Source: Deltaproteobacteria bacterium (lineage in GTDB: Bacteria; Desulfobacterota; Desulfobulbia; Desulfobulbales; Desulfurivibrionaceae). From it: 43,876 bases of DNA. The first letter of the stretch is position 1, and each line of letters opens with the position of its first letter. Under the pieces are notes generated by a model that saw nothing but the letters and a program-made list of their open reading frames with translations, searched no databases and was not told the origin of the DNA. The position numbers and the translations under genes were made by a program. Of the stretch, positions 512 through 15,394 are shown one piece after another. Location of the stretch: contig JAJZRF010000022.1 of the NCBI GenBank assembly GCA_021847425.1, forward strand, positions 1-43,876. Reading direction: 5' to 3'.

Positions 512-1786
512 TCAAGAGCACCCGCCGCCCGAGCCGACACAGCCGCCGGAGGCGCAGGACTTCTTCCGTTTCCGCAAGGGCGCGACACTGGCGCCTTCGT
601 ATATCGCCTTCAGGCCGTCCATGATAAACCCGCCCATCTCCACCGGCCGCAACCCGGTTTTTTCAAGAATCTCGCGGGGCGTCTCGCCCACGCCGCTCAC
701 CAGAACCGCCCGGCAGTCATTCAATGCCCGGGCCAGCGAGGTCCAGCGCTGCAGACCGCCGCTCACCTTGGGAGCTGGCCGCTCTTCCACAAGCAGATAC
801 TCATCCCCCTTCCGTTCGTAGATCTGGAAGCGATTGGCTTCACCAAGGTGCTGATTGACCAGAACCCCCTCCATGCTGGCCACTGCCACATAGGGCCGGA
901 TCTCCGGAGGCAGAGGTGGCATCTGCGCGCAGGCGGAAAGGCACCCTCGCATCTCCTCGGTACGGTCCTGGTCGAGCAGCCCCACCGCGTCGGCCCGACA
1001 GCGGGTGCAATGACGCATCTGCGGCAGAAACTTTTCCGCCTCGGTGCGCAGCGCACCGACTTCCTCCTTGGACGGCTCGCGGATCGTGCCAAAGGGGGTG
1101 CCCACGTTGGGAAACATGGCCATGCAGTTGAAGAGATCCGCGCCCAGTCCCTGCATGGTTTCCGCCACCTTGATGATATGCTGGTCGTTGATCCCCGGAA
1201 TCATGATGGAATTGATCTTCACCGTGATCCCATGCGCTTTCAGGGCTCTGACCGCTTCCAGCTGCCGGGAAAGCAGCAGCTCCGCCGCCTGCCGCCCGTG
1301 ATAGGCAACCTTGCCGTCGCGGACCCAGCTGTAAATCCTGGCGCCCACCTCCGGATCAACGGCATTGATGGTGATGGTCACATGGGAGACATTCAGCTCC
1401 GCCAGCTCGGGGATATAGGGCCCAATGGCCAACCCGTTGCTGGCCAGGCACAGAATCATCTGCGGAAAATTCTTATTGATCAAGCGCATGGTTTCCATGG
1501 TCGCCTCTCCATTGGCAAAGGGGTCGCCAGGCCCGGCAATACCGGCCACGGTAATGCGCGGCTCCTTTTCCAGAACCTTGCCCATGTACACCAGGGCCTG
1601 CTCGGGACTCAAAATGGTGCTGGTCACCCCGGGCCGGGACTCATTGACACAGTCGTACTTGCGGTCGCAATAATTGCACTTGATATTGCAGTTCGGGGCC
1701 ACCGGCAGATGGACGCGGCCTGCCTGCCCTTTCATCGCCGGATTGAAACAGGGATGCTTGCTCAGGTCCTTGTGTATCTCGCTCAT
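512..1786 (-). CDS. nifB: NifB, radical-SAM nitrogenase cofactor maturase
   Basis: A 424-residue protein that makes NifB-co, the 8Fe-9S-C core of the nitrogenase cofactor, by radical-SAM insertion of carbon into paired FeS clusters. The N-terminal HPCFN (Cys13) precedes the radical-SAM triad Cys33, Cys37, Cys40 in PNCNIKCNYC, followed by CDRKYDC. The SAM-binding AGPGDP segment lies near residue 85. The C-terminal third (from about residue 300, RPYVAVASMEG) is the NifX/NafY-like cofactor-binding domain, so this is the fused NifB type. It ends in a Cys/Gly-rich tail (CASGGCVGSGGGCS). The ATG follows GGGAG. It is the last gene of nifE-nifN-nifB, 89 bp after nifN. Confidence 0.96.
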   Translation of the reverse strand: MSEIHKDLSKHPCFNPAMKGQAGRVHLPVAPNCNIKCNYCDRKYDCVNESRPGVTSTILSPEQALVYMGKVLEKEPRITVAGIAGPGDPFANGEATMETMRLINKNFPQMILCLASNGLAIGPYIPELAELNVSHVTITINAVDPEVGARIYSWVRDGKVAYHGRQAAELLLSRQLEAVRALKAHGITVKINSIMIPGINDQHIIKVAETMQGLGADLFNCMAMFPNVGTPFGTIREPSKEEVGALRTEAEKFLPQMRHCTRCRADAVGLLDQDRTEEMRGCLSACAQMPPLPPEIRPYVAVASMEGVLVNQHLGEANRFQIYERKGDEYLLVEERPAPKVSGGLQRWTSLARALNDCRAVLVSGVGETPREILEKTGLRPVEMGGFIMDGLKAIYEGASVAPLRKRKKSCASGGCVGSGGGCS

Positions 1787-1875: not shown

Positions 1876-3234
1876 TCACATATAGCTGTAGCCGACCTCG
1901 GAGCTGTCCTGCTTTGCCATGATCATCGCATTGGCGATCAGGTCGAAAAGCTGCTGCGCTCCGTGGTAGCCGATATGCAGGAGCCGCTGGCCGCCCACCC
2001 GGTCGTGGATGGGAAACCCCACCCGGATCAACGGAATGCTTAAATTCCGGGCCAGGGTATAGCCCTTGCTGTGACCGAGGAAAAAATCAGGCTTCAGCTC
2101 CGCGGCCAATTCGCCTATCTCGTGGAAATCCATCCCCTCATGTATCCGTGGCATTTCCACAGCAAAGCCTTCCACCGCCTTTTCGATGGCCTTAACAAAG
2201 GAGCCGCTGGTGCCGCCCGAGGCGCAGAGCACCGGCTGCACCCCGATCTCGGCCAGAAACGAGGTCAGGCCGATAACCAGATCCTCTTCGCCGTACACCA
2301 CGGCCCGTTTGCCGAACACGTACTTATGGCCGTCCACCAGGCTGTCCACCAACCTACCCCGCGCCATGGCGTACTTCTCCGGCGGGGGGTTGCCGGAAAG
2401 GTCGCTCAACACCTCGAAGAACCGGTCCGTTTCCCTGATGCCCACCGGCATGCCCAAACGGTGCAGGTCCACCCCGTATGCTTTCTCAAGGTGTTTGCCT
2501 CCGGAGAGCTGGTCCGGCAGGGTATGGCCGAACTCCACGGTTGCCTTGGCTCCGCCCATGGCCCGGATATCGCTGATCCTGGTCCCGCCCTTGGGAATCA
2601 GGGGATAGTCCCGCAGGGCCGGCCCGTCGAGGGTTTCGGAAAAATCAGGCAACACGGTGGCAGTCAAGCCGCAATCGGCAACGATCTCCTTGAGGCTCCG
2701 CAGATCAGCGGCCGAGAGAAAGCCGGGCAGGATGTTCACCGTGGAGTTGGCGTCCGCCGCCACGGTCAACTGCTCCACCAGCCCCCGCACCGCCGCATGG
2801 AACCCCTCCATGTGGGTGCCCGAATAGCTCGGGGTGGAAACCTGCACCAGCAGCGGGCCGCCGTCCCGCATGAACTCCCGGCGGTACTCGAAGAGCAGCC
2901 GTTTCACATCGTCGCCGATGGTTTCGGTGAGACAGGTGGTGGCGATGCCGATGAGGGCCGGGTGGTATTTCTCCGTCACGTTTTTCAGGCCCAGCTTCAG
3001 GTTTGCGCCGCCGCCGTAGACCGCGTTCTTCTCCCCCAGCGAGGAGGAAGCGATGTCGATGGGTTCGTTAAAATGGCTGATGATGTAGCGCCGCATGTAG
3101 GTGGCGCACCCCTGGGAGCCGTGGAGAAAGGGCACCGCCCCTTCCACGCCCCGAAAAGCGAGGCTGGCGCCCAGCGGCTTGCACAGCTTGCAGGCATTGG
3201 TGGTGGAGACATACTGGGGGACCATCTTAGTCAT
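1876..3234 (-). CDS. nifN: NifN, cofactor scaffold beta subunit
   Basis: A 452-residue NifK homologue that pairs with NifE to form the scaffold on which NifB-co is matured to FeMo-co. It shows the expected NifN features: NACKLCKPLGA near the N-terminus, FLHGSQGCATY (P-cluster-equivalent Cys), and TTCLTETIGDD near residue 112. I chose the ATG at 3234 because it sits 6 nt after AGGAGGT. A longer reading from 3258 adds eight residues that lie upstream of that ribosome site. The start overlaps the end of nifE by 8 bp, which implies translational coupling. The C-terminus ends SSEVGYSYM. Confidence 0.94.
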   Translation of the reverse strand: MTKMVPQYVSTTNACKLCKPLGASLAFRGVEGAVPFLHGSQGCATYMRRYIISHFNEPIDIASSSLGEKNAVYGGGANLKLGLKNVTEKYHPALIGIATTCLTETIGDDVKRLLFEYRREFMRDGGPLLVQVSTPSYSGTHMEGFHAAVRGLVEQLTVAADANSTVNILPGFLSAADLRSLKEIVADCGLTATVLPDFSETLDGPALRDYPLIPKGGTRISDIRAMGGAKATVEFGHTLPDQLSGGKHLEKAYGVDLHRLGMPVGIRETDRFFEVLSDLSGNPPPEKYAMARGRLVDSLVDGHKYVFGKRAVVYGEEDLVIGLTSFLAEIGVQPVLCASGGTSGSFVKAIEKAVEGFAVEMPRIHEGMDFHEIGELAAELKPDFFLGHSKGYTLARNLSIPLIRVGFPIHDRVGGQRLLHIGYHGAQQLFDLIANAMIMAKQDSSEVGYSYM

Positions 3235-4591
3235 GGGGCACCTCCTGCACGGTTTCACTTTTCCGGGGCACGAACCGCCACACCGGGCTCATCACCGAGG
3301 AGTACACCTCGCGGGCAAAGTTGAGCATGCCGGCAAACCCGGCCAGCATCTCCTTGCGTTCGTGGTTGTGGTCGCAGAAGGCCACGCCCAGCTTATAGGC
3401 GATGGGCCGCTCCTTGACCCCGCCCACGAAGATGTCCACCTCCTTTTCCTGGAGAAACGCGGAAAGCTCCAGGGGGTTGGAATCATCCACGATGATGGTG
3501 CCAGGGTCAGTGATCTCGGCCAGTTCCGCATAATCCTCCGGGGTCCCGGTCTGGGAGCCGACCATGACCGCCTGCATGCCGATGGCGCGGAAGGCCTTGA
3601 CCAGGGAAAACGCCTTGAACGCCCCTCCCACATAGATGGCGGCCCGCTTGCCGGCCAACGCCTGCCGGTATTTCATCAGCTCCGGCATCAACAAGGAAAG
3701 CTCCTCCTTGACCAGCTCCCGCGTGCGACGCATCATCTCCTCGTCCTTGAAAAACGCGGCCACCGCATAGAGCGATTCGGCCATGTCCTCAACGCCGAAG
3801 TAGGAGACCCGCAGCGAGGGGATGCCATAGTCCTCTTTCATCATCCGGGCCAGATCCATGGTGGAGCCGGAGCACTGCACCACGTTGAGCGCGGCTCCAT
3901 GGGCCCGCTGGATGTCTCCCACCCGGCCGTCCCCGGTGATGTTGGCCACCACCTCGACGCCCATCCGGGTAAAGTAGTCGCGGATCAGCCAGATCTCCCC
4001 GGCCAGGTTGAAATCGCCCAAAATGTTGAGGCTGTACTTGGATATCCCGCTGATGTCGCCCATGCCCACCAGTTGCCGCATGGCATTGCAGGCGGCCTTG
4101 TACCCCTCCCGCTTGTTGCCCTTGAACCCCTCCGACTGCACGGGCAGAACCGGAATCCCCTTTTCCTCGCTCACCCTGCGGCACACCGCCGCCATGTCGT
4201 CGCCGATGATCCCCACGATGCAGGTGGAATAGACAAAGGCCGCCTTGGGCGCGTGCCGGTCGATGAGTTCGACCAGGGCGCTGTAGAGCTTTTTCTCGCC
4301 GCCGAAGATGACGTCGGCCTCCTGCATGTCCGTGGAAAAACTCAAGCGGTGCAGTTCCGGCCCGGAGGAGAGCGCCCCCCGGATATCCCAGGTGTAGACC
4401 GCGCAGCCGATGGGGCCATGCACCAAGTGCAGGGCGTCGGCGATTGGGTACAGCACCACCCTGGAGCCGCAGAACACGCAGGCCCGCTGGCTCACCGCTC
4501 CGGCCAGGCTGTCCTTGTTGCACTCCATGGCAAAGGGGGCTTCCCCGGTGCGGTGTATCGAATCCTGTCGTTCCTGCAACGCTGCTTCCAT
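3227..4591 (-). CDS. nifE: NifE, cofactor scaffold alpha subunit
   Basis: A 454-residue NifD homologue and partner of NifN in the E2N2 scaffold. Motifs seen include RACVFCGSRVV, HGPIGCAVYTWDIRG, SFSTDMQEADVIFGGEKKL and TCIVGIIGDD, all standard in NifE. The ATG at 4591 follows AGGAG by 10 nt; an upstream in-frame ATG at 4648 falls at the -24 promoter element and cannot be used by that transcript. It is first in the nifENB operon, about 40 bp downstream of a sigma-54 promoter. No nifX or nifV follows it inside the window. Confidence 0.95.
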   Translation of the reverse strand: MEAALQERQDSIHRTGEAPFAMECNKDSLAGAVSQRACVFCGSRVVLYPIADALHLVHGPIGCAVYTWDIRGALSSGPELHRLSFSTDMQEADVIFGGEKKLYSALVELIDRHAPKAAFVYSTCIVGIIGDDMAAVCRRVSEEKGIPVLPVQSEGFKGNKREGYKAACNAMRQLVGMGDISGISKYSLNILGDFNLAGEIWLIRDYFTRMGVEVVANITGDGRVGDIQRAHGAALNVVQCSGSTMDLARMMKEDYGIPSLRVSYFGVEDMAESLYAVAAFFKDEEMMRRTRELVKEELSLLMPELMKYRQALAGKRAAIYVGGAFKAFSLVKAFRAIGMQAVMVGSQTGTPEDYAELAEITDPGTIIVDDSNPLELSAFLQEKEVDIFVGGVKERPIAYKLGVAFCDHNHERKEMLAGFAGMLNFAREVYSSVMSPVWRFVPRKSETVQEVPHD

Positions 4592-4632
4592 GGCACCCGT
4601 GCTCCTGTGTAATGAGTTACAAAGGGGTAAGA

Positions 4633-4647
4633 GCAAGGGGTGTGCCA
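4633..4647 (-). promoter_or_regulatory. Sigma-54 (-24/-12) promoter of nifENB
   Basis: On the minus strand TGGCACACCCCTTGC matches the sigma-54 consensus TGGCAC-N5-TTGC with the required GG and GC 10 bases apart. The same 15 bases occur before nifH (15436-15450). It lies about 42 bp upstream of the nifE ATG, a fitting distance. Confidence 0.9.
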
Positions 4648-4737
4648 CGCAGGGGAAATAATATTTTCTTGTTTGATTACATGATGTTATAGAGATAATA
4701 GCTCAGGGGCTGAAACGGAAAGGGGCAAGGAGGGTTG

Positions 4738-4753
4738 TGTAATGTTTGCGACA
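4738..4753 (-). promoter_or_regulatory. NifA-type upstream activator site for nifENB
   Basis: TGT-AATGTTTGCG-ACA matches the TGT-N10-ACA NifA site exactly and lies 90 bp upstream of the -24 element, the usual spacing for a looping activator. The rest of the 4592-4900 spacer holds no convincing gene. Confidence 0.7.
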
Positions 4754-4900
4754 AAAAAGAAGGGGGTGGACATTTCTGTCGGTCCACGGACTTGGAGAAC
4801 AACACAGATTCCGGGGGATGATCCGGATTTTCCACTGTACAGTGCTCCCGAGAGACGCTACAGTAAAGGCGGTCAATCGCCCTTCGAGGAGAATCATGTC

Positions 4901-5170
4901 GTGAATATCAGATTTTCAGAGGATGTCATCCCGTTAAGCGACCTGAAAGCAAACCCCGGCAAAGTCATACGGCATGTCTCCGAGGCGCATCGGCCGGTAT
5001 TGTTGACCAGCCGGGGGCGAGGGGTGGCGGTGGTGCCGGACCTGCGGGATTATGAAAAGACCGAAGAGGAATGTTCTTTCATGCGAGCCGTGGTCAAAGG
5101 CATGGTGGAGTTGGATCAAGGACACGAGACATCCCTTGCCGAGGTGAAAAAACGGTTGGGACTGACCTAG
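4901..5170 (+). CDS. Phd/YefM-like antitoxin
   Basis: An 89-residue protein starting at GTG (4901) after GAGGAG. The overlapping ATG at 4896 is out of frame and meets a stop at once. The N-terminal half (IPLSDLKANPGKVIRHVSEAHRPVLLTSRGRGVAVV) is the Phd/YefM fold: a DNA-binding strand-helix segment followed by a repressor-like core. The C-terminal half (HETSLAEVKKRLGL) is the toxin-wrapping tail typical of RelB/YefM partners. The open frame extends upstream to 4742 but that part overlaps the nifE activator site and shows no family similarity. The cognate toxin begins 2 bp downstream but is truncated, so this is probably an orphaned antitoxin. Confidence 0.8.
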   Translation: MNIRFSEDVIPLSDLKANPGKVIRHVSEAHRPVLLTSRGRGVAVVPDLRDYEKTEEECSFMRAVVKGMVELDQGHETSLAEVKKRLGLT

Positions 5171-5172
5171 AA

Positions 5173-5235
5173 ATGACCGGGACGATACCCATAACCTTCG
5201 CGGAGTCCGCAGTTCAGGACGCCGTGCACTTGTAA
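5173..5235 (+). pseudogene. Truncated RelE/ParE-type toxin remnant
   Basis: An ATG 2 bp after the antitoxin stop opens a 20-codon frame, MTGTIPITFAESAVQDAVHL, then TAA. The first 16 residues match the usual beginning of RelE/ParE toxins that follow such antitoxins (strand 1, then the FAESAVQD helix start), after which the sequence diverges. The body of the toxin, with its active-site residues, is gone. The MITE starts 45 bp further on, so the deletion predates or accompanied later rearrangement here. Identification rests on family memory and position. Confidence 0.6.
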
Positions 5236-5268
5236 TTTTAATTCACCTCTGGTTGACAGAGATTTAAG

Positions 5269-5505
5269 TATTATGTCCCGAATGGCGCTAGTTTAAGGTT
5301 TTTGCCTGGGAGATCACCCACAATGATCGGTTAAAACTACGACCTCGCCGATTTGACGACGCACAGGGGAAAGTGCCCCTCAACACAATCGGCGGCAAGA
5401 AAAAACTACCAGCGGCTAATATCGCCTAAGCATAAAATGTGAGAGACTCAGAGACGCAAAAATCATGCTGAAATCGCTTAAACTAGCGCCATTCTATTAT
5501 GTCCC
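5269..5505. mobile_element. MITE-like element with 18-bp TIRs and 11-bp target duplication
   Basis: The element proper is 5280-5494 (215 bp). Its ends are perfect 18-bp inverted repeats, GAATGGCGCTAGTTTAAG at 5280-5297 and its complement at 5477-5494. It is flanked by identical 11-bp direct repeats TATTATGTCCC at 5269-5279 and 5495-5505. It has no open frame of useful size. Inside is a stem of CGCCGATT (5346-5353) with AATCGGCG (5387-5394) enclosing a second AGGGG/CCCCT hairpin. The TIR style and the 11-bp duplication suit the IS4 group, so it is probably a non-autonomous derivative moved in trans; no transposase lies in the window. Confidence 0.85.
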
Positions 5506-5611
5506 CTGAATTATGAGGCAGGAAAATAAACAGGCGCTCGAAGCCGGAATTACTCGCAAACGTAATTTTCCCCTGGAATAGTCTAACAAGCTGACAAACC
5601 GGGAGGATTCC

Positions 5612-5674
5612 ATGCGTTTCCCCATAACCTTGGGCATCCCGCTTTACACCCACATGACAAGGAGTCCGAAGTGA
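5612..5674 (+). CDS. Possible 20-aa leader peptide before hepT
   Basis: An ATG 5 nt after GGGAGGATTC-type sequence opens MRFPITLGIPLYTHMTRSPK. Its TGA stop overlaps the GTG start of the next gene (GTGA). The good ribosome site and exact overlap suggest translational coupling, but a remnant of a lost gene or chance are equally possible. The rest of the 5506-5611 stretch shows nothing recognisable. Confidence 0.3.
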   Translation: MRFPITLGIPLYTHMTRSPK

Positions 5675-6096
5675 AAGATATTCGGTGGAAACAGCGCTTC
5701 GACAATTACACCAATGCGTTGCAAACCCTCAGCAGGGCGGTGGAATTATCCAGACAGCGCGATTTGTCGGAACTGGAACAGCAGGGGGTAATTCAGGGGT
5801 TTGAGTTTACCCACGAACTTGCCTGGAATGTGTTGAAGGATTATCTCGAAGAACAGGGATTTGTCGGCATCGTCGGTTCCAGGAATGCAACCCGCGAAGC
5901 CTTCAGGAACGGGCTGCTCGATGACGGGGAAACATGGATGGACATGATCAAGGCCCGCAACCTGACCTCGCACACCTACGACCCTCACATCGCGGAGGAG
6001 GTTGCGAAAGACATTCTGACCCGATTTTATCCCGCCTTTGTCGCAATGGCACAACGCTTCGGCGCGCTTGCCGGTCAGCCGGACACCAACCCATGA
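5671..6096 (+). CDS. hepT: HepT-like HEPN toxin (HI0074 family)
   Basis: A 141-residue all-helical protein of the nucleotidyltransferase substrate-binding (HI0074/HEPN) family. The N-terminal part (FDNYTNALQTLSRAVEL) and GFEFTHELAWNVLKDYLEEQG are characteristic. The HEPN RNase motif R-X4-H-X-Y is present as RNLTSHTY near residue 115. In known pairs the HEPN protein is a ribonuclease toxin inactivated by AMP transfer from the partner MNT protein. The start is GTG, with AAGGAG 8 nt upstream. Its stop overlaps the start of the next gene by 4 bp (ATGA), as in a type VII toxin-antitoxin operon. Confidence 0.88.
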   Translation: MKDIRWKQRFDNYTNALQTLSRAVELSRQRDLSELEQQGVIQGFEFTHELAWNVLKDYLEEQGFVGIVGSRNATREAFRNGLLDDGETWMDMIKARNLTSHTYDPHIAEEVAKDILTRFYPAFVAMAQRFGALAGQPDTNP

Positions 6097-6446
6097 ACCA
6101 CGGCCTGCCATCGCAGACAGTGAAAAAAATCCACACCGTATTCAGCCGCTTTCCAGCCATCGAGAAAGCGGTTTTGTACGGCTCCCGCGCCAAGGGCACT
6201 TACAAAACCGGCTCGGACATCGACCTGACCCTGTACGGCGATGCCCTGACCACGGCGGAACTTGGCGCCATTGTCGAGGAACTTGACGACCTGCTGTTGC
6301 CCTACCAGATCGACCTCTCGATTTTTGACCAGATCGCCCATGCAAAACTGCGGGAACATATCGAGCGCGTCGGGGTGGTGTTTTACGAGAAGGGTAAAAG
6401 CGCAAATTGGAGAATCTCGAAGATCTCGGGAATAGTCATGATTTGA
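6093..6446 (+). CDS. mntA: MntA-like nucleotidyltransferase antitoxin
   Basis: A 117-residue minimal nucleotidyltransferase. The catalytic signature GS-X10-D-X-D is intact as GSRAKGTYKTGSDID (residues about 30-44), with the downstream acidic residue in QIDLSIFD. In HepT/MntA pairs this enzyme AMPylates a Tyr of the HEPN toxin and neutralises it. The ATG overlaps the hepT stop by 4 bp, fixing the start. Length is normal for the HI0073 family; the last 15 residues (from KSANWRIS) look like run-on beyond the conserved domain. Confidence 0.88.
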   Translation: MNHGLPSQTVKKIHTVFSRFPAIEKAVLYGSRAKGTYKTGSDIDLTLYGDALTTAELGAIVEELDDLLLPYQIDLSIFDQIAHAKLREHIERVGVVFYEKGKSANWRISKISGIVMI

Positions 6447-6501
6447 TGCGTTTCTTGCCGGAAGGCTCTGGGCTCAGGTCTTGAACAGTAAATTTACAGT
6501 A

Positions 6502-6840
6502 TCATTTTTCCTGCTTACCCAAGAGCAGGCGCTCAACCGCTGACCGGTACGCGGCCAGGTCTTCGCGCTTGTCGATAGCCAGCACCAGAACGACCAGCAC
6601 ATCTTCCTCAACGCTATAGACCAAACGGTAGCCCTGCTTGCGCAATTTAATTTTGTAGCAATTACGCAGGTCACCATGCAGGTGCGAGCCAGGCGGGCAG
6701 GGTTGCTCGAGACGCTTTTTGAGTGCTTTGCGCAACACCGCCTTGATGCTCCCGTCGAGACCGTTCCACTCCTCGAGTGCTTCCGGCAAAAATTTGAGCC
6801 GGTACTTCGGGATACCTGGAACGACTTCAGATTTTGTCAA
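6502..6840 (-). CDS. relE: RelE-type mRNA interferase toxin
   Basis: A RelE/StbE-superfamily protein of 112 residues. Visible features are YRLKFLPEALEEWNGLDGSIKAVLRKALKKRLEQP, the central HGDLRNCYKIKLRKQGYRLVY (basic residues that in RelE contact mRNA) and VLVVLVLAIDKREDLAAY. I place the start at TTG 6840, which has GAGGT 5 nt upstream and overlaps the antitoxin end by 14 bp. Longer readings to 6894 would lie inside the antitoxin gene. Toxin and antitoxin are on the strand opposite to hepT-mntA and converge with it. Confidence 0.85.
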   Translation of the reverse strand: MTKSEVVPGIPKYRLKFLPEALEEWNGLDGSIKAVLRKALKKRLEQPCPPGSHLHGDLRNCYKIKLRKQGYRLVYSVEEDVLVVLVLAIDKREDLAAYRSAVERLLLGKQEK

Positions 6841-7078
6841 TATCAACCTCGATGGCCGTGTCTTTGTGTGCCAGCCGGTGGCGTACAAGCTCAACCAGAT
6901 CCAGATCGACCAACTTCTCGACCAAGGCTTCGAAAAGCTTAGGGGTGACCATATAAAAAGCGGGACGGTTGTGGTTGAGCACCGCTACCGGCTTTTCGCC
7001 TGCGGAGCGCAGTACCTGCGCCGGGTTCTTCTTGAACTCGGACATGCTGATCGAGTAGTCGGCGTAGATCGTATCCAT
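6827..7078 (-). CDS. Phd/YefM-family antitoxin (RelB-like)
   Basis: An 83-residue protein, start ATG 7078 after AGGAGGG with 5-nt spacing. SISMSEFKKNPAQVLRSAGEKPVAVLNHNRPAFYMVTPKLFEAL is the Phd/YefM DNA-binding core. The short acidic C-terminus (KDTAIEVDIDKI) is the likely toxin-binding tail. It is co-transcribed and overlapping with the RelE toxin, forming a complete type II module that should autoregulate. A spacer of about 200 bp (7079-7275) with no gene lies upstream. Confidence 0.88.
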   Translation of the reverse strand: MDTIYADYSISMSEFKKNPAQVLRSAGEKPVAVLNHNRPAFYMVTPKLFEALVEKLVDLDLVELVRHRLAHKDTAIEVDIDKI

Positions 7079-7275
7079 ACATTCCCTCCTTGAATTATCA
7101 GCTACAAATATAGCTCTGTTTACAGCCCTTTTCAAGGAAAAAATAAGTAGAGTAACGCACACGGCTTTCCGATGTCCTTCATGCCAAGGCGCATGCGCCG
7201 AGCCCACGCCTGCCACCACAGGAACCTTTCACAACCCATAGGCCCGAGAGTTCCGTCCTCCTTTTCTTGTCTTGA

Positions 7276-7752
7276 TTAACCGTAATCGTTCGCCTGGGGC
7301 ATAAAAGCCCGCAGACAGATGAGTTCCGTGGTGCGCCAGCCCTGATGCCGGTAGAAGTCGAGAGCCGGGATATTGTTGCGGTCGGCCAGAAGCTGCAGGC
7401 GCGAGGCCTTCTTCGCCTTGGCCCAGCCGCTGATCGCTTCGAGCAGCAGACGACCCACGCCGCGCCTGCGCCATGGTTCATGGACAACCACATCTTCAAC
7501 CAGCAGGGACAGCCCGCCCTCCGCGGTCGAGACAAGCAACTGCCCGGAACACATGCCGACCACCTCCCCTTCCGCCTCGGCAACCAGCACACAGCCGCGC
7601 TCGTTTTCCAGCATCAGCGTGAGACCGCGCCGCTGCTTCGGCGCATCGAAAACAAAATCCTCTTCGATTGAAAAAAGCGCGGCCAGCAAGGAGACCAGGC
7701 TGTCAAGGTCCGCCGGTTCCGCGCTTCGTATCCTCACTCTTAGGTCAGACAT
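7276..7752 (-). CDS. GNAT-family N-acetyltransferase
   Basis: A 158-residue single-domain acetyltransferase. The N-terminus VRIRSAEPADLDSLVSLLAALF is the first strand and helix. Motif A, VEDVVVHEPWRRRGVGRLLLEAI, carries the R-R-x-G-V-G acetyl-CoA pyrophosphate loop, and NNIPALDFYRHQGWRTTELIC is motif B. The ATG at 7752 follows GAGGG; the open frame upstream to 7788 is not needed. The acceptor is unknown. It lies between two toxin-antitoxin-like modules and could be an antibiotic- or tRNA-directed toxin, but no DUF1778-type antitoxin is beside it, so a housekeeping role is as likely. Confidence 0.85.
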   Translation of the reverse strand: MSDLRVRIRSAEPADLDSLVSLLAALFSIEEDFVFDAPKQRRGLTLMLENERGCVLVAEAEGEVVGMCSGQLLVSTAEGGLSLLVEDVVVHEPWRRRGVGRLLLEAISGWAKAKKASRLQLLADRNNIPALDFYRHQGWRTTELICLRAFMPQANDYG

Positions 7753-7812
7753 GGCGCCCTCTTTTTTCCCCGCCGGAACCGGTCGCACAATGCACAGACC
7801 GGCTTGGTCCGG

Positions 7813-8927: not shown

Positions 8928-9233
8928 CTAGGAGGCGATCAGGTGCTCCGCCGCCGGGTTCCCCTCTTCGAGGCCATCCAGGATGGCGTCGATGGCCTCG
9001 TGGCTGTCCACCCCTTTGAACCACCAGTTCTCGGGCTGGATCACCATGATGGGGCCTGATTCGCACTGCTTCAGGCAGGTGGTGGCGGTGACCAGGCAGT
9101 TCAAGCCCCGGTCAAGGATTTCCTCTTCGAGATACTGCATGAAGCCGTCGGTCTGCTTGTGGCAGAGGCCCTTCTTGTCGCCGGCCACACGGAAGCTCTG
9201 GCAGACGAGGATCTGTCTTTTGGGAATTGCCAT
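8928..9233 (-). CDS. Thioredoxin-like [2Fe-2S] ferredoxin
   Basis: A 101-residue protein of the thioredoxin-fold [2Fe-2S] ferredoxin family found in many nif clusters. The likely ligands are Cys11, Cys24, Cys53 and Cys57 (LVCQS, GLCHK, TTCLKQC); Cys46 is extra. The pattern C-x12-C followed by C-x3-C is that of this family, not of plant-type ferredoxins. GPIMVIQPENWWF is also characteristic. It may donate electrons or interact with nitrogenase, like the FeSII/Shethna proteins. The ATG follows GAGGAG. It is the last gene of the nifH operon, 27 bp after the NifB-like gene. Confidence 0.85.
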   Translation of the reverse strand: MAIPKRQILVCQSFRVAGDKKGLCHKQTDGFMQYLEEEILDRGLNCLVTATTCLKQCESGPIMVIQPENWWFKGVDSHEAIDAILDGLEEGNPAAEHLIAS

Positions 9234-9260: not shown

Positions 9261-10436
9261 CTATTTGCGGCAGGTTGGTTTATTTTTGCCGCCGCCGAAC
9301 AGAACATCCACAGTCCCGCCGATCTCGCCCCCGGTGATCAGCACCGTGATGCCGCGCTCTTTCAAGATCTGTTTGGGGTTTGCTCCGGCGCTGGCGGCAA
9401 GCAGCGCAAAGCAATCGGGCAGGGTGTCCGCCAGCTTTTCCCAGCGCAGCCCCCCGCCCCCAGCCTCGGGCAGGTCGCGGCGGCCGAGCAGACAGGTAAG
9501 TCCATCCTCCCTAGGGCCGTAGATCAAGGCCTGGTAGGCCTGGCCCAGGTGGAGATCCACCTCCATGCCGCCGATGCTGACCACGGCCACATTGGGCCGC
9601 TTGCTGCTTGGTTTGGGCAAGGCTGCCGCCACAAATCCGCCCTCGGTAATGGGCGCAATCAAGCTACCCCCGGATTCGGTTGCCTCCTGGTCCTCATGCA
9701 CCTCCAGGTATTTGCTCACCCGACTGCGGGCCACGGCCAGCATGGTGTTGTCCGCTTCCGGCGGAAAGCTCTGGCCTTCAGCCTCTTCCGCCCCCGGTTT
9801 GAACGGAACCAGGGTCATTGCCGCGGCGCCAAGTTGGGCCATGCGTTGCGCGACCTGCTCCAAATGGTCGTCATTGTAGCCGGGATAGAGGGTGGTCCTG
9901 ATCGTGACCTTGATTCCCGCTTTCCGGAAAGCGACAACCGCCTGGGCCTGTTCGCTCAGAAGTGTTGCCGCGACTTCAGCCAGGGAGACGGTTTTTCTGC
10001 CTGGACGAATCCAGGCAAAGAGCTTTGTAAGTATCTCCGGATCAACCGCATCCACCCGCAGGGTCACCAGGCCGACGCCCTCTTCATCCAGGAGCGCTGC
10101 ATACTGCTCCCCGCCCAGTCCCAAGGTGACGATTTCCACGGTCAGGGAGGGATACTTCTGTTTGAGCAGGCGAATGGTTTTCAGGGTGAGGCCGACCGTG
10201 GCCAGCGGGTCTCCAGGTCCAGCGATGACCACCTGCGGCGGCGTCCCTGTACTGCCGAGTACTTGTGCTGCCCACGCCAGAGCCTCTTCCGGCGACATGA
10301 CCGGCGCAGGGGGCTGATCCGGCGCAAAACGAAGCCGGGCGTTGGCGTGCACCGCCACCGGCAGAGACAGTCTTCGCGACGTGCTAACAGAATCAGGCTT
10401 GCCGGGAGACATTTTTAGAAACGGAATTACAGTCAT
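9261..10436 (-). CDS. NifB-like protein lacking radical-SAM cysteines, with NifX-type domain
   Basis: A 391-residue full-length paralogue of NifB. The barrel part aligns with NifB through LSLPVAVHANARL, MSPEEALAWAAQVLG, VVIAGPGDPLATV (the SAM-site AGPGDP is kept) and LVTLRVDAVDPEILTKLFAWIRPG. At the positions of the three cluster cysteines it has Ala31, Leu35 and Ala38, and the HPCF start is missing. The C-terminal third (RPNVAVVSIGGMEVDLHLG) is a NifX/NafY-like cofactor-binding domain. It therefore cannot do radical chemistry in the known way and is more likely a carrier, chaperone or insertase for the cofactor. It sits directly after nifK (79 bp) and before the ferredoxin. The ribosome site is weak (AAGG). 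Confidence 0.88.
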   Translation of the reverse strand: MTVIPFLKMSPGKPDSVSTSRRLSLPVAVHANARLRFAPDQPPAPVMSPEEALAWAAQVLGSTGTPPQVVIAGPGDPLATVGLTLKTIRLLKQKYPSLTVEIVTLGLGGEQYAALLDEEGVGLVTLRVDAVDPEILTKLFAWIRPGRKTVSLAEVAATLLSEQAQAVVAFRKAGIKVTIRTTLYPGYNDDHLEQVAQRMAQLGAAAMTLVPFKPGAEEAEGQSFPPEADNTMLAVARSRVSKYLEVHEDQEATESGGSLIAPITEGGFVAAALPKPSSKRPNVAVVSIGGMEVDLHLGQAYQALIYGPREDGLTCLLGRRDLPEAGGGGLRWEKLADTLPDCFALLAASAGANPKQILKERGITVLITGGEIGGTVDVLFGGGKNKPTCRK

Positions 10437-10515: not shown

Positions 10516-11889
10516 TTACATGACAAGCTCGAAGCTCTGCTCCGGCGCATCCCGGTCCAGACGGTCCAGCAAAACGCCGAGGATCTTCTCCAACAACCGC
10601 AAGCCGCCCTTGTAGCCGACCGTGGGAAAATACTGATGCCCCTGGCGGTCCAGGATGGGGAAGCCCCAGCGGACAAAGGGCACGTCTTCATCCCGGGCGA
10701 TATACTTGCAATACGTGTTGCCGATCAGCAGATCCACCGGTTCGTTCTTGATCCACTGGTGGAGCAGGAACATGTCGCCCTTGGCCCGGACGTTGACCTC
10801 AAAGGGCATATCCTTGGTGATCTCCTTGATCCGCGCTTCAAACTTCTTGCCCGGCGTGCCCGTAACGATATGGACGGGGCACATATCGAGCGAAACCAAA
10901 AACTCGGTCATGGCGATGAGCTGATCCGGATCGCCCACCAGGGCCACCTTTTTATGGTAGAGGTACTGGTGCATGTCGGAAATCATGTCCACCAGCTGCC
11001 CGCGCTCCAAGGCTATTTCGTCGGGCACGCTCACTCCGGCGATCATCCGCAAGGCATCGATAAAACGGTCCGTGGCACTGAGACCGAAGGGCATGTCCAG
11101 CACGCGGCACGGCACCTTCATATTGGCATCCAGCCAACGGGCAGCCTCGCCGGAGCACCATTCGCCCAAGGCCAGGGTGCCGATGGAGTCGCCGGTGGAT
11201 TTCAATTCCTTGACCGTGGTGCCGCCATCCGGAAACATCTTGTACTCGCCGGAAAGCGGGCCGTTCAACACGCCGGAGGTGTCCGGAAAAAGAATGCTTT
11301 TGACTCCGGCCAGCCCTACCAGCCGCTTGATCTCCTCCATGTCGGCCGGCTCCACCCATCCGGGGATGATGTTCAGCTTGCCGTTTTTCTTGCCGGTGGG
11401 CTCAGCCATCTTGGCCATGGAGATAACCATGCTGGAAAAGCCGGTAACATGGGAACCCACATAGCTTGGGGTGGAGCAGCTGATGACCTCCTTGCCCTTG
11501 GGTATCTTGCCTTCAGCATCCGCCCTCTTCTTGATCTGTTTCAGATCGTCACCAATGGTCTCGGAAAGACAGGTGGTGTGGATGGCGATAATCTCCGGGT
11601 CGTAGACTGCGAAGATGTTGTCGATGGCCTGGAGCATATTGGCCTGGCCGCCGAACACCGAAGCGCCTTCGGTGAACGAACTGGTGGCGGCGGAAACCGG
11701 CTCCTTGTAATGCCGGGTCAGGGCGCTGCGGTGGTAGGCGCAGCAACCCTGGGAGCCATGGCTGTGCGGCAGGCAACCGTGGATACCCAAGGCCGCATAC
11801 ATGGCACCGATGGGCTGACAGGTCTTGGCCGGATTGATGGTCAAGGCGCTGCGCTCGGTTATTTCTTTCGGGGTATGTCGTAGTAGCAT
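10516..11889 (-). CDS. nifK: NifK, nitrogenase MoFe protein beta subunit
   Basis: The beta subunit of dinitrogenase, 457 residues, sharing the P cluster with NifD. The three P-cluster cysteine regions are visible as AKTCQPIGAMYAALGIHGC, HGSQGCCAYHR and HTTCLSETIGDD. The protein lacks the long N-terminal extension found in the Azotobacter-type subunit, as expected of the short anaerobe type. The ATG at 11889 has GAGGA 7 nt upstream; an in-frame ATG at 11976 lies inside the repeat spacer and is not used. It is preceded by nifD after a 127-bp spacer that contains an array of 7-mers. Confidence 0.96.
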   Translation of the reverse strand: MLLRHTPKEITERSALTINPAKTCQPIGAMYAALGIHGCLPHSHGSQGCCAYHRSALTRHYKEPVSAATSSFTEGASVFGGQANMLQAIDNIFAVYDPEIIAIHTTCLSETIGDDLKQIKKRADAEGKIPKGKEVISCSTPSYVGSHVTGFSSMVISMAKMAEPTGKKNGKLNIIPGWVEPADMEEIKRLVGLAGVKSILFPDTSGVLNGPLSGEYKMFPDGGTTVKELKSTGDSIGTLALGEWCSGEAARWLDANMKVPCRVLDMPFGLSATDRFIDALRMIAGVSVPDEIALERGQLVDMISDMHQYLYHKKVALVGDPDQLIAMTEFLVSLDMCPVHIVTGTPGKKFEARIKEITKDMPFEVNVRAKGDMFLLHQWIKNEPVDLLIGNTYCKYIARDEDVPFVRWGFPILDRQGHQYFPTVGYKGGLRLLEKILGVLLDRLDRDAPEQSFELVM

Positions 11890-11911
11890 GATCGTGTCCT
11901 CAATTTTATAG

Positions 11912-12010
11912 AAAAGGCACAAGGTGAAAGGTTCAAGGCGCAAGGATGAAAAAGCAAAAAAGTGCTTCGCTATCACTTAACCTTTCATCTTTCACCTTTT
12001 CCCTTTTGCC
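11912..12010. repeat. Inverted pair of period-7 repeats, nifD-nifK spacer
   Basis: On the plus strand a purine-rich arm of seven 7-mers (AAAAGGC, ACAAGGT, GAAAGGT, TCAAGGC, GCAAGGA and so on, 11912-11960) is followed by a pyrimidine-rich arm (CTTAACC, TTTCATC, TTTCACC, TTTTCCC, TTTTGCC, 11976-12010). The arms pair imperfectly, with AAGGTGAAAG perfect over 10 bp, giving a long hairpin between nifD and nifK in the mRNA. Confidence 0.7.
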
Positions 12011-12016
12011 TGTTTT

Positions 12017-13657
12017 TTATTCCCACACATAGGAGGCGGAGAGTTCCGGGTTCTTCTGCCAGGGCGCCAGCATATAGCTCCAGACCTTGCTGTTCACCAA
12101 CCGGTCGATTTCCCGGTAAAAGTTCACCGCGCCCTTAAAGCCTGCATAGGGGCCGCCGGAGTCATAGCTGTGCAGCTGCTTCATGGGCACGCCCAGCTTC
12201 TGGATGGAATATTTTTCCTTGATCCCGGCGCAGAAGATATCCGGTTTCATCAGCTCCACCAACTTCTCGGCCTCGTACTGGTTGAGGTCGTCGATGATGA
12301 TCGTGCCCTTGTCCATGTCCGGAACCAAGCCATCGTACTGCTTGAAGGCGTAGCCGGCCTCTTCCAGCGCCTTGAACTCGGCGGGGGTTTTCCGCGGGTT
12401 GTATCGGGTCTCGTCCGGTTCGACATGGATCTCCTCGATGTTCCGGCTGTCCGCGTCCACTTCCAGGGTCGGGATTACCTGACGGCCCTCATAGTCATCG
12501 CGGTGACCGAACTCGTACCCCGCCGAGATGGTTTTCATGCCCATCTCATTGAACAGCTCCTTGTAATGATGCGCCCGGGAGCCGCCCACGAACATCATCG
12601 CGGTCTTGCCTTCGGTGCGGGTCCGGACATCGGCGCGGGCCGCGAGAACCTCCGGCATCTCCTCGGCGATAACCGCCTCCACCCGATCGATGAGTTCCTT
12701 ATCCCCGAAGTATTCGGCGATTTTGCGGAGCGACTTGGCCGTGGCATCGGCGCCGATGAAATTCACCTTGACCCAGGGAATGCCGAATTTTGTTTCCAGC
12801 ATATCGGCCACATAATTGATGGAACGGTGGCACATGACCGCGTTGAGATCGGCTTTATGGGCCGAGGCGAACTGGTCATAGGTCGAGTTGCCGGAAAAGG
12901 TGGCGATGTTGGTGATGCCGCATTTCTTAAAAATCCGTTCTATCTCGAAGCCGTCACCGCCGATGTTATACTCGCCCAGCAGGTTTATCTTGTACCTGCC
13001 GGGTTTTTCCGCATCGTTTTCTCCAACGATATGCTTGAACACCTGGTTGTTGGCGATATGATGCCCGGCGGACTGGGAAACGCCCTTGTACCCTTCGCAG
13101 CTGAAGGCATACACATTGCAGTCGCCGAATTTCTCCTTCATCCGCTTGGCCACGGTGTGGATGTCGTCGCCGATCAGCCCCACCGGACAGGTGGCGAAGA
13201 TGGCGATGGACCTAGGATGAAAAAGGTCGTAGGCCTCCTGGATGGCCGCGGTCAGCTTCTTCTCGCCGCCGAAGATGATATCCGAATCCTGCATGTCGGT
13301 ACTGAAGGCGTAGTTCATGTAGTTCTCGCCGTCTGGCCCGGCATCGGTCTGGTTGCGCCGGGTCAGCCAGGCGTAGAAACTGCAGCCGATGGGGCCATGC
13401 ACCAGGTTGACGATATCACGGGTGGGCCCCATGATAACACCCTTGCAGCCGGCGTAAGTACAGCCGCGCATGGTGATGATGCCCGGGGTGGTGCGTACGT
13501 TGGCGGAAATCTCCGGGGTCTCGTTGGCTAAAGCCTCATTGATCATAATCTGCTTGGCGCGCTTGCGGGCGACCTTGGACGGGTACTTGGCGAGAAGCTC
13601 GGCCTTAACCTCGGCCGGGTCCCACTGCACCAGTTTTTTCTTGGTCATTGTTGCCAT
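12017..13657 (-). CDS. nifD: NifD, nitrogenase MoFe protein alpha subunit (insert-containing type)
   Basis: The alpha subunit of Mo-nitrogenase, 546 residues. P-cluster ligands lie in RGCTYAGC (Cys66), HGPIGCSFY and ATCPVGLIGDD. The FeMo-co ligands are Cys276 in VMCHRSINY and His496 in LHSYDSGGP. Compared with the Azotobacter subunit it carries an insert of about 50 residues around residues 395-445 (from RNIEEIHVEPDE through FKQYDGLVPD), a mark of the NifD type found in clostridia, methanogens and deltaproteobacteria. ATG 13657 follows AGGAGAAAGAAA. It lies 20 bp after nifI2. Confidence 0.97.
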   Translation of the reverse strand: MATMTKKKLVQWDPAEVKAELLAKYPSKVARKRAKQIMINEALANETPEISANVRTTPGIITMRGCTYAGCKGVIMGPTRDIVNLVHGPIGCSFYAWLTRRNQTDAGPDGENYMNYAFSTDMQDSDIIFGGEKKLTAAIQEAYDLFHPRSIAIFATCPVGLIGDDIHTVAKRMKEKFGDCNVYAFSCEGYKGVSQSAGHHIANNQVFKHIVGENDAEKPGRYKINLLGEYNIGGDGFEIERIFKKCGITNIATFSGNSTYDQFASAHKADLNAVMCHRSINYVADMLETKFGIPWVKVNFIGADATAKSLRKIAEYFGDKELIDRVEAVIAEEMPEVLAARADVRTRTEGKTAMMFVGGSRAHHYKELFNEMGMKTISAGYEFGHRDDYEGRQVIPTLEVDADSRNIEEIHVEPDETRYNPRKTPAEFKALEEAGYAFKQYDGLVPDMDKGTIIIDDLNQYEAEKLVELMKPDIFCAGIKEKYSIQKLGVPMKQLHSYDSGGPYAGFKGAVNFYREIDRLVNSKVWSYMLAPWQKNPELSASYVWE

Positions 13658-13677: not shown

Positions 13678-14052
13678 TTAGACAATGGCCTTCTGGCCCG
13701 TCTCGCCGGTTCGCACCCGGACAGCGTCGGCCAACGGCAGGACAAAAATCTTACCATCCCCTGCCTTGCCGGTCTGGTTGGTTGAAATAAGCGCCTGGAC
13801 CACATCCTTGACCAGATCATCCTTGACCACCACCGTCACCATGCGTTTCGGGTAGAGCTGACCTTTGGCGCCAAGCAGGGAAGCAGCTTCCTCATATCCC
13901 TGCTGCGCCCCCTCAAGAACCTTGGGATTGACAAATCCCTTGCCGCGGCCATGGGCCTCATGCACGAAAAACGCGTCAATCCCGGCATCGGTCAGGGCCT
14001 GCTTGGTTTGATTCATCATATTTATGCGCACAAGGGCGATCACTTCTTTCAT
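13678..14052 (-). CDS. nifI2: NifI2, PII-like nitrogenase switch protein
   Basis: A 124-residue member of the PII family that, with NifI1, binds MoFe protein and blocks activity when 2-oxoglutarate is low. It begins MKEVIALVRINMMNQTKQAL and has the longer T-loop region HGRGKGFVNPKVLEGAQQGYEEAASLLGAKGQLYPKRMV that separates NifI2 from GlnB. The ATP-binding C-terminal [26 protein letters not shown] is intact. There is no Tyr51-type uridylylation site. Its start overlaps the nifI1 stop by 4 bp. Confidence 0.95.
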   Translation of the reverse strand: MKEVIALVRINMMNQTKQALTDAGIDAFFVHEAHGRGKGFVNPKVLEGAQQGYEEAASLLGAKGQLYPKRMVTVVVKDDLVKDVVQALISTNQTGKAGDGKIFVLPLADAVRVRTGETGQKAIV

Positions 14053-14405
14053 GCCGGCCCCCTTTCCGATTCGAACTCGGTTTCCTTGACCCCGGAGCTG
14101 ATGGTATACGCCTCCTCAACCTCGCTCACAAAGATCTTCCCGTCACCGAAAGCGCCCTTGGTGCCGGACTTGGCCGTTTTCATGATGGTCTCAAGAACAA
14201 AATCCTTGTCCGCCGGATTGATCACGCTCATGAGCATGACCTTGGGAATTTCATCATAGGTGACTTCGCCGATTTTTATGCCGCGCTGCTTGCCCCGCCC
14301 GGCCACCGAGTATTTGGTCACCGAGGGAAAGCCTGCCTCCATAAGGGCCGCAAGGATTTTATCCGCTTTCTCCGGCCTGACAATTGCTCTGATCATGGTC
14401 AACAT
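14049..14405 (-). CDS. nifI1: NifI1, PII-like nitrogenase switch protein
   Basis: A 118-residue PII-family partner of NifI2. It opens MLTMIRAIVRPEKADKILAALMEAGFPSVTKYSVAGRGKQRGI, the standard NifI1 form, and has GTKGAFGDGKIFVSEVEEAYTISSG for nucleotide binding. The T-loop lacks the GlnK Tyr. GGAG lies 7 nt before the ATG; a second in-frame ATG is three codons in. Position between nifH and nifD matches the anaerobe-type operon. The long 7-mer hairpin in the nifH-nifI1 spacer may lower expression of everything downstream of nifH. Confidence 0.94.
   Translation of the reverse strand: MLTMIRAIVRPEKADKILAALMEAGFPSVTKYSVAGRGKQRGIKIGEVTYDEIPKVMLMSVINPADKDFVLETIMKTAKSGTKGAFGDGKIFVSEVEEAYTISSGVKETEFESERGPA

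Positions 14406-14533: not shown

Positions 14534-15394
<861 letters not shown>

Follow-up and report, generated by a model that had tools for sequence, protein, structure and literature searches.

NifB and the proteins built on a NifX-type domain (NifX, NafY, NifY and NafX) are the described systems closest to the protein analysed here. NafY, the apodinitrogenase gamma subunit of A. vinelandii, is a two-domain protein whose N-terminus is a sterile-alpha-motif domain and whose C-terminal, NifX-type domain carries a cofactor histidine (PMC11938142, PMC13128457); according to PMC11938142, NafY binds both FeMo-co and the apo-MoFe protein, with His121 binding FeMo-co. NifX, a carrier of NifB-co, is a chain of 158 residues without a barrel; its H35 coordinates NifB-co in the NifENX structure (PMC13128457), and its Cys82 is reported to have no part in that binding (PMC11938142). 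NifY and NafX also possess a NifX-type domain but lack the cofactor histidine (PMC13128457). In A. vinelandii, nifX adjoins nifEN. The NifY gene of Klebsiella follows nifK, in likeness to the position of the gene described below.

Cysteine-less “NifB” proteins have already been noticed and set aside: in PMC5715403, most of the excluded NifB-annotated sequences are without Cx3Cx2C yet have a NifX domain, and were taken for NifX. That excluded set shares both properties with the present proteins; the latter are not simply NifX, as they possess a whole NifB-type barrel and occupy a near-constant genomic slot. No description of the family was found in the titles and abstract openings of the literature searched, which covered few subscription journals.

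A NifB-Derived Protein within a nif Operon

The window (the whole stretch of 43,876 nucleotides analysed here, from a bacterium of the family Desulfurivibrionaceae, order Desulfobulbales) harbors a nif cluster on its minus strand. It comprises nifH (14534..15358; TIGR01287, 442 bits, cut-off 394), nifI1 (14049..14405) and the PII-like nifI2 (13678..14052), both named from their position and reading with no family-model match at 1e-30, nifD (12017..13657; TIGR01282, 665 bits, cut-off 654) and nifK (10516..11976; TIGR01286, 445.6 bits, cut-off 427.3), followed by the paralogue (9261..10436) and a 2Fe-2S ferredoxin gene (8928..9233), the latter recognized by synteny, its best NCBIfam match being NF041612 at 57 bits, below the cut-off of 150. 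NifH, NifD and NifK all pass their model cut-offs and the paralogue gene thus lies inside a Mo-nitrogenase operon. Further along the same strand are nifE (3227..4648; TIGR01283, 624 bits, cut-off 505), a gene named nifN by position only (1876..3258), which fails both the nifK model (318 bits, cut-off 427) and the nifN model (298 bits, cut-off 327), and the true nifB with its CNIKCNYC motif (512..1786; TIGR01290, 400 bits, cut-off 344). Between the ferredoxin gene and nifE, the cluster contains (4742-7219) toxin-antitoxin-type genes, namely two Phd/YefM antitoxin matches (4742-5170, plus strand; 6827-7219, minus strand) and a ParE toxin match (6502-6894, minus strand), as well as a HepT/nucleotidyltransferase-like pair (5671-6446, plus strand). 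A GNAT acetyltransferase open reading frame at 7276-7788 belongs to the same insertion-like stretch.

The paralogue, a NifB-derived pseudoenzyme of 391 amino acids with an ATG start, has the same domain order as NifB, a radical-SAM-type barrel followed by a NifX-type domain; Pfam recognizes both, Radical_SAM with 42.1 bits and Nitro_FeMo-Co (PF02579) with 30.4 bits, each above its gathering score. Over residues 44-387, it shares 33% identity with the window's own NifB (E 2.5e-47), but fails the NifB model TIGR01290 at 113.1 bits for a cut-off of 343.65. Neither the NifX model (TIGR02663, cut-off 112) nor PF16844 (DIMCO_N, the N-terminal domain of NafY) is among its matches listed up to E 1. 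The dead barrel spans residues ~22-247 (9696..10373, minus strand; limits from alignment and model) and retains GPGDP (73-77), the W142 region, R144 and N188. At codons 31-38 (10323..10346, minus strand), Ala31, Leu35 and Ala38 occupy the positions of C35, C39 and C42 of the window's NifB and so replace the cysteines of CxxxCxxC; HPC is gone and AGPGDP is retained. The NifX-type domain covers residues ~280-382 (9291..9599, minus strand) and includes His296 (9549..9551, minus strand), which profile alignment makes the counterpart of the cofactor ligand His35 of NifX. The preliminary description had proposed that the protein aligns with the window's NifB, including AGPGDP and the NifX-type domain, and that its cluster cysteines have become Ala31, Leu35 and Ala38; the identity, the two Pfam domains and the alignment, in which none of 168 rows has CxxxCxxC, agree with both statements.

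Distribution and Synteny

In the window's family, a full-length paralogue is found in 20 of 27 genomes, the window's own among them, and none of the 20 copies has CxxxCxxC; a further genome, G011, has a truncated copy. Across the order Desulfobulbales, at least 140 of 257 genomes carry the paralogue, a hand count of 141 rows at E 1.6e-81 or better in which one genome (G123) appears twice; the row that follows, at 1.4e-73, falls in the range of NifB and is the second match from a genome that had its place in the count, and G011 and G130 carry further copies beyond the 141 rows. In the order containing genome G292, the paralogue is present in 49 of 199 genomes (E 1.5e-73 or better, counted by hand), all belonging to one family, f51, which is probably Desulfovibrionaceae. 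Named carriers include Desulfobulbus elongatus DSM 2908, Desulfobulbus alkaliphilus DSM 24258, Desulfogranum japonicum DSM 18378, the cable bacterium Candidatus Electrothrix gigas and Pseudodesulfovibrio pelocollis SB368. Among the best 80 of 146 relatives in a scan of named genomes, all titles refer to groups of Desulfobacterota or to broader ones (Deltaproteobacteria, Proteobacteria, Pseudomonadota, bacterium).

The aligned sets comprise part of the listed paralogues only. In one set of 122 rows, mainly from Desulfobulbales, the truncated copy (L106) is left out and five loci (L081-L085) come from outside the order; 46 rows from f51 bring this set to the 168 rows referred to throughout which, as L274 equals L306 and L084 equals L257, represent 166 distinct genes.

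The preliminary description had placed the gene directly after nifK, and this position is nearly constant. In a set of 134 open reading frames, which includes three partial or split ones (the two pieces of L190, and L255) as well as L106, nifK lies close upstream in 120 of the 127 that could be tested and the ferredoxin gene close downstream in 125 of 130; the order nifK-paralogue-ferredoxin is found in all 46 f51 rows. The seven upstream exceptions are the cable bacterium, with nifK ~5 kb off, five loci without nifK in the examined stretch and one artefact of overlapping reading frames, and the five downstream ones are two overlap artefacts (L140, L167), the split gene L190, a ferredoxin gene 2 kb off in L230 and none in L241. 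In some genomes without the paralogue, nifK directly adjoins the ferredoxin gene (L097-L100 inside the order, L086 and L090 outside); the slot is thus one at which the gene was either inserted or cleanly lost and, judging from the L097-L100 operons, the paralogue is dispensable for some such nitrogenases. In three genomes of the order (G220, G247, G248), nifK is more distant, at 63% identity, and the examined stretch holds no match to the paralogue or the ferredoxin. In G004, which has no paralogue, the gap between nifK and the ferredoxin gene contains two small open reading frames, one of them with a Nif11 domain (L088:2838-3418).

Residues Lost and Retained

CxxxCxxC is absent from all 168 paralogue rows and present in 30 of 30 true NifB sequences; CxxCRxDAxG is found in none of 122 paralogues and again in all 30 NifB, although f51 copies often have one of its cysteines remaining. 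Such a pattern of motif loss, common to 168 aligned rows, is no chance event. The loss of HPC, which the preliminary description had also reported, holds for the window copy and for 121 of the 122 mainly Desulfobulbales rows, but not for f51, where 32 of 46 rows retain it. With the cluster ligands assigned after PMC6053413 and carried over by alignment in NifB numbering, the SAM-cluster cysteines C35, C39 and C42 are kept in 0, 0 and 16 of the 122 rows, the K1 cysteines C15, C48 and C115 in 15, 0 and 4, and C262 and C265, which are part of K2, in 0 and 1.

The histidine and cysteine of the NifX-type domain are kept in 122 of 122 paralogues, as they are in the C-terminal domain of true NifB (30 of 30), and His296, Cys342, Arg320, Arg331, Trp332 and Asp341 are each found in 168 of 168 rows. 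Counted along the alignment, His296 corresponds to H35 and Cys342 to C82 of NifX; in the two chains compared, the partners of His296 are residue 35 of 9ian (NifX) and the matching histidine of 1p90 (NafY core). Judging by the lengths of the 1p90 chain and of NafY, the latter residue should be His121 (H121). Profile comparison gives the NafY core as a slightly better match than NifX (2.7e-6 against 2e-4). With PF02579 above its gathering score and a histidine invariant in 168 rows and aligned with H35, the domain can be assigned from its sequence to the NifX-type cofactor-binding class; as NifY and NafX, according to PMC13128457, are without this histidine, which is invariant here, the paralogue resembles the cofactor-binding members rather than these two.

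In the barrel, GPG with D, E or N as the next residue is found in 117 of 122 rows; Gly75, Gly106, Trp142 and Arg144 are invariant in all 168, N188 is kept in 167, and P145 of the WIRP stretch, an Asp in NifB, in 166. These residues could mean that the barrel retains a pocket for a non-radical ligand (SAM, homocitrate or some other anion) and has acquired a new, non-redox function. The conserved glycines may, however, be structural, and the barrel changes more rapidly than entire NifB does (dN/dS 0.21 against 0.12); we give such a pocket only a slim chance.

Selection and Predicted Fold

The barrel is under purifying selection. For 106 pairs drawn from 53 sequences with an overall dS of 0.1-0.7, its median dN/dS is 0.21 (range 0.10-0.91), while that of the NifX-type domain in the same 106 pairs is 0.10 (range 0.01-0.83) and that of true NifB 0.12 (29 pairs). 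Between the window copy and its three nearest relatives, dN/dS of the barrel is 0.18-0.26. When wider pairs with dS up to 1.2 are admitted, the barrel median reaches 0.55 and the maximum 1.08 (801 pairs), values which were taken for saturation and led to the narrower dS range; within that range, three of the 106 pairs (L155-L084, L081-L084 and L081-L083) exceed 0.7 in the barrel, two of them in the NifX-type domain as well. The preliminary description had named a lack of purifying selection on the barrel as a finding that would speak against a maintained pseudo-enzyme, and a median of 0.21 is not such a lack.

These values bear directly on whether the gene is simply a functionless, decaying copy of nifB, as the loss of its catalytic residues could suggest. 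One in-frame stop was flagged in 2 of the 141 rows of the order (G158, G099) and in 8 of the 49 f51 rows, and the gene of L190, a contig of a named metagenome-assembled genome, is in two pieces; yet five of the ten flagged genes were examined (L150, L271, L275, L293, L297) and all proved to be full-length reading frames with no stop in the local alignment. With dN/dS far below 1, 166 distinct genes, fully conserved NifX-domain residues and a conserved synteny, decay is refuted as a general account and we regard it as extremely improbable.

An AlphaFold2 model calculated from 70 sequences has a mean pLDDT of 86.9, and its best PDB match by Foldseek is the archaeal NifB 7jma (1.9 Å; E 9.9e-19, TM 0.93 by target length); a search of the PDB by sequence likewise ranks NifB structures first. 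The modelled fold thus points to a NifB-type barrel and a NifB ancestry and, together with a conserved family in which no row out of 168 has the radical-SAM motif, bears out the pseudo-enzyme with a NifB fold that was first proposed. Pseudoenzymes often regulate their active paralogues, and a predicted fold and an ancestry in common with NifB would also suit a pseudo-subunit that pairs with active NifB and regulates it or stores its product. The gene is, however, nearly always beside nifK rather than nifB, the NifX-type domain is more conserved than the barrel, and G011 manages without any barrel, all of which makes a NifB pseudo-subunit rather improbable.

Origin and Possible Intermediate Forms

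In a full-length tree, for which L293 and L299 were excluded in advance on account of their length or difficult placement and the row set was reduced both by similarity and by random thinning, all proteins of the slot form one clade separate from NifB (100/100). Likewise, 91 paralogue rows come together as a single clade in a thinned tree of the barrel (SH-aLRT 100).

Not all proteins of the slot have lost the radical-SAM motif. In four f51 genomes (G706 and G818 of genus g330; G815 and G831 of genus g349), the position between nifK and the ferredoxin gene is occupied by a NifB-derived protein with CxxxCxxC but without HPC (L308:1498-2823, L309:1480-2841, L310:1309-2673 and L295:8026-9426); those of g349 are also without CxxCRxDAxG and without Cys342. 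From their motifs, these could be radical-SAM proteins devoid of the ligands of NifB's substrate cluster, and enzymatic activity may persist in part of the family. The full-length tree resolves them as a clade (100/99) beside the cysteine-less proteins (98/80). In the thinned barrel-only tree, the single cysteine-bearing slot protein then included groups with the paralogues (100/97); by the AU test on the barrel alone, neither the grouping of that protein with NifB (p 0.139) nor a clade uniting every f51 copy (p 0.078) is rejected. Close relatives with intact cysteines, which according to the preliminary description would make the window copy a decaying gene, did not emerge: the cysteine-bearing relatives stand only as a deep sister branch.

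At the other extreme, G011, from the window's own genus, encodes in the same slot a protein of 144 amino acids consisting of a leader followed by the NifX-type domain, with no barrel (L106:8685-9119; one draft genome).

NifX and NafY in the Same Genomes

The preliminary description had suggested that the protein takes the place of a missing nifX. No genome of the order (0 of 257) has a NifX-model match above cut-off, but neither has any of 14 control genomes, the match in Methanosarcina acetivorans, one of the controls, being below cut-off; as no control reached it, the absence of NifX is not positively controlled. PF16844, the model of the NafY N-terminal domain, likewise finds no match in the order nor in the control genomes. 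Small NifX-like open reading frames (under 300 amino acids and matched from position 1 of the NifX profile; hand count) are present in 35 of the 257 genomes. On the NifX model they reach ~27-61 bits, in every case below the 112-bit cut-off; several adjoin nifB, and they may constitute an undescribed NifX subfamily.

Of these 35 genomes, 28 also carry the paralogue, and such coexistence argues for a role other than that of NifX and weakens the idea of a simple nifX stand-in; as worded, the original suggestion is not borne out and has partial support at most.

The main alternative to the function proposed below is nonetheless a NifX-like one, in which the protein takes NifB-co from NifB, docks through its barrel on NifB or NifEN and delivers its load to NifEN. 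The alignment of His296 with NifX H35, the descent from NifB and the absence of NifX over cut-off in 257 genomes (as in the controls) are in its favour; the coexistence in 28 of 35 genomes, the position beside nifK rather than nifEN, and the better, if only slightly so, profile match to the NafY core speak against it. On balance, we consider a NifX-like carrier unlikely, while ranking it first among the alternatives.

Proposed Function

The paralogues form a single clade in the full-length tree, occupy the same slot, have lost nearly all barrel ligands in Desulfobulbales, keep an invariant histidine and evolve under purifying selection. We lean, with modest confidence and from sequence data, towards a duplicate of nifB that has become a histidine-bearing chaperone of the nitrogenase cofactor, acting on apo-NifDK in the manner of NafY. 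In nif operons of Desulfobacterota, a copy of nifB would have been placed between nifK and the 2Fe-2S ferredoxin gene, lost its NifB chemistry stepwise and been retained as a cofactor chaperone. Its NifX-type domain would hold FeMo-co (or NifB-co) via His296, and the inactive barrel would serve as a docking domain, bringing the cofactor to the apo-NifDK encoded just upstream. The protein would then match NafY in function, a dead NifB barrel standing where NafY has its N-terminal sterile-alpha-motif domain.

A NafY-like role is preferred as the gene sits with nifDK, as 28 of the 35 genomes with a small NifX-like open reading frame carry the paralogue too, and as NafY is itself a two-domain protein that binds FeMo-co and the apo-MoFe protein. 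The operon position is no proof of action on NifDK, since nifX sits beside nifEN in A. vinelandii and nifE is in the present cluster too. Further points against the proposal are that true NifB shares the histidine and cysteine of the NifX-type domain, that operons such as those of L097-L100 do without the gene, that four slot proteins retain CxxxCxxC, that by the barrel alone the one tested among them may group with NifB, and that the barrel-less form comes from one draft genome. In comparison with NafY, the paralogue differs by its N-terminus; with NifX, by a barrel of ~225 residues and a gene placed after nifK; with NifB, by the absence of CxxxCxxC and CxxCRxDAxG, of HPC in Desulfobulbales copies, by its separate clade in the full-length tree and by 113 bits against a 344-bit cut-off. 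It would thus appear to be a cofactor-binding protein of the NifX type for which a dead NifB has supplied the framework.

The steps of such a conversion may be represented in living genomes: cysteines kept (g330, g349), then HPC only (most f51 copies), then nearly no barrel ligands (Desulfobulbales, including the window), then no barrel at all (G011). That a radical-SAM enzyme has in this way become a chaperone within its own pathway, and that the family is the apo-NifDK insertase of the nitrogenases of sulfate reducers, is a broader proposal that we put forward tentatively, as conceivable but short of likely.

Significance

Many sulfate-reducing bacteria carry, after nifK, a copy of NifB that has lost its catalytic metal ligands and kept its cofactor-gripping domain, and that probably carries or inserts the nitrogenase cofactor. 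For annotation, this is a warning that a protein called “NifB” on the strength of a partial match may have no catalytic activity, a point of importance when such operons are copied in nitrogenase engineering. If the proposed function is correct, a NifX-type chaperone can arise by inactivation of a NifB copy and not by recruitment of a free-standing domain, and a candidate cofactor chaperone would be at hand for a large group of anaerobic diazotrophs in which the NifX model, as in the controls, finds nothing above its cut-off; the supply of cofactor to apo-NifDK in these bacteria becomes directly testable.
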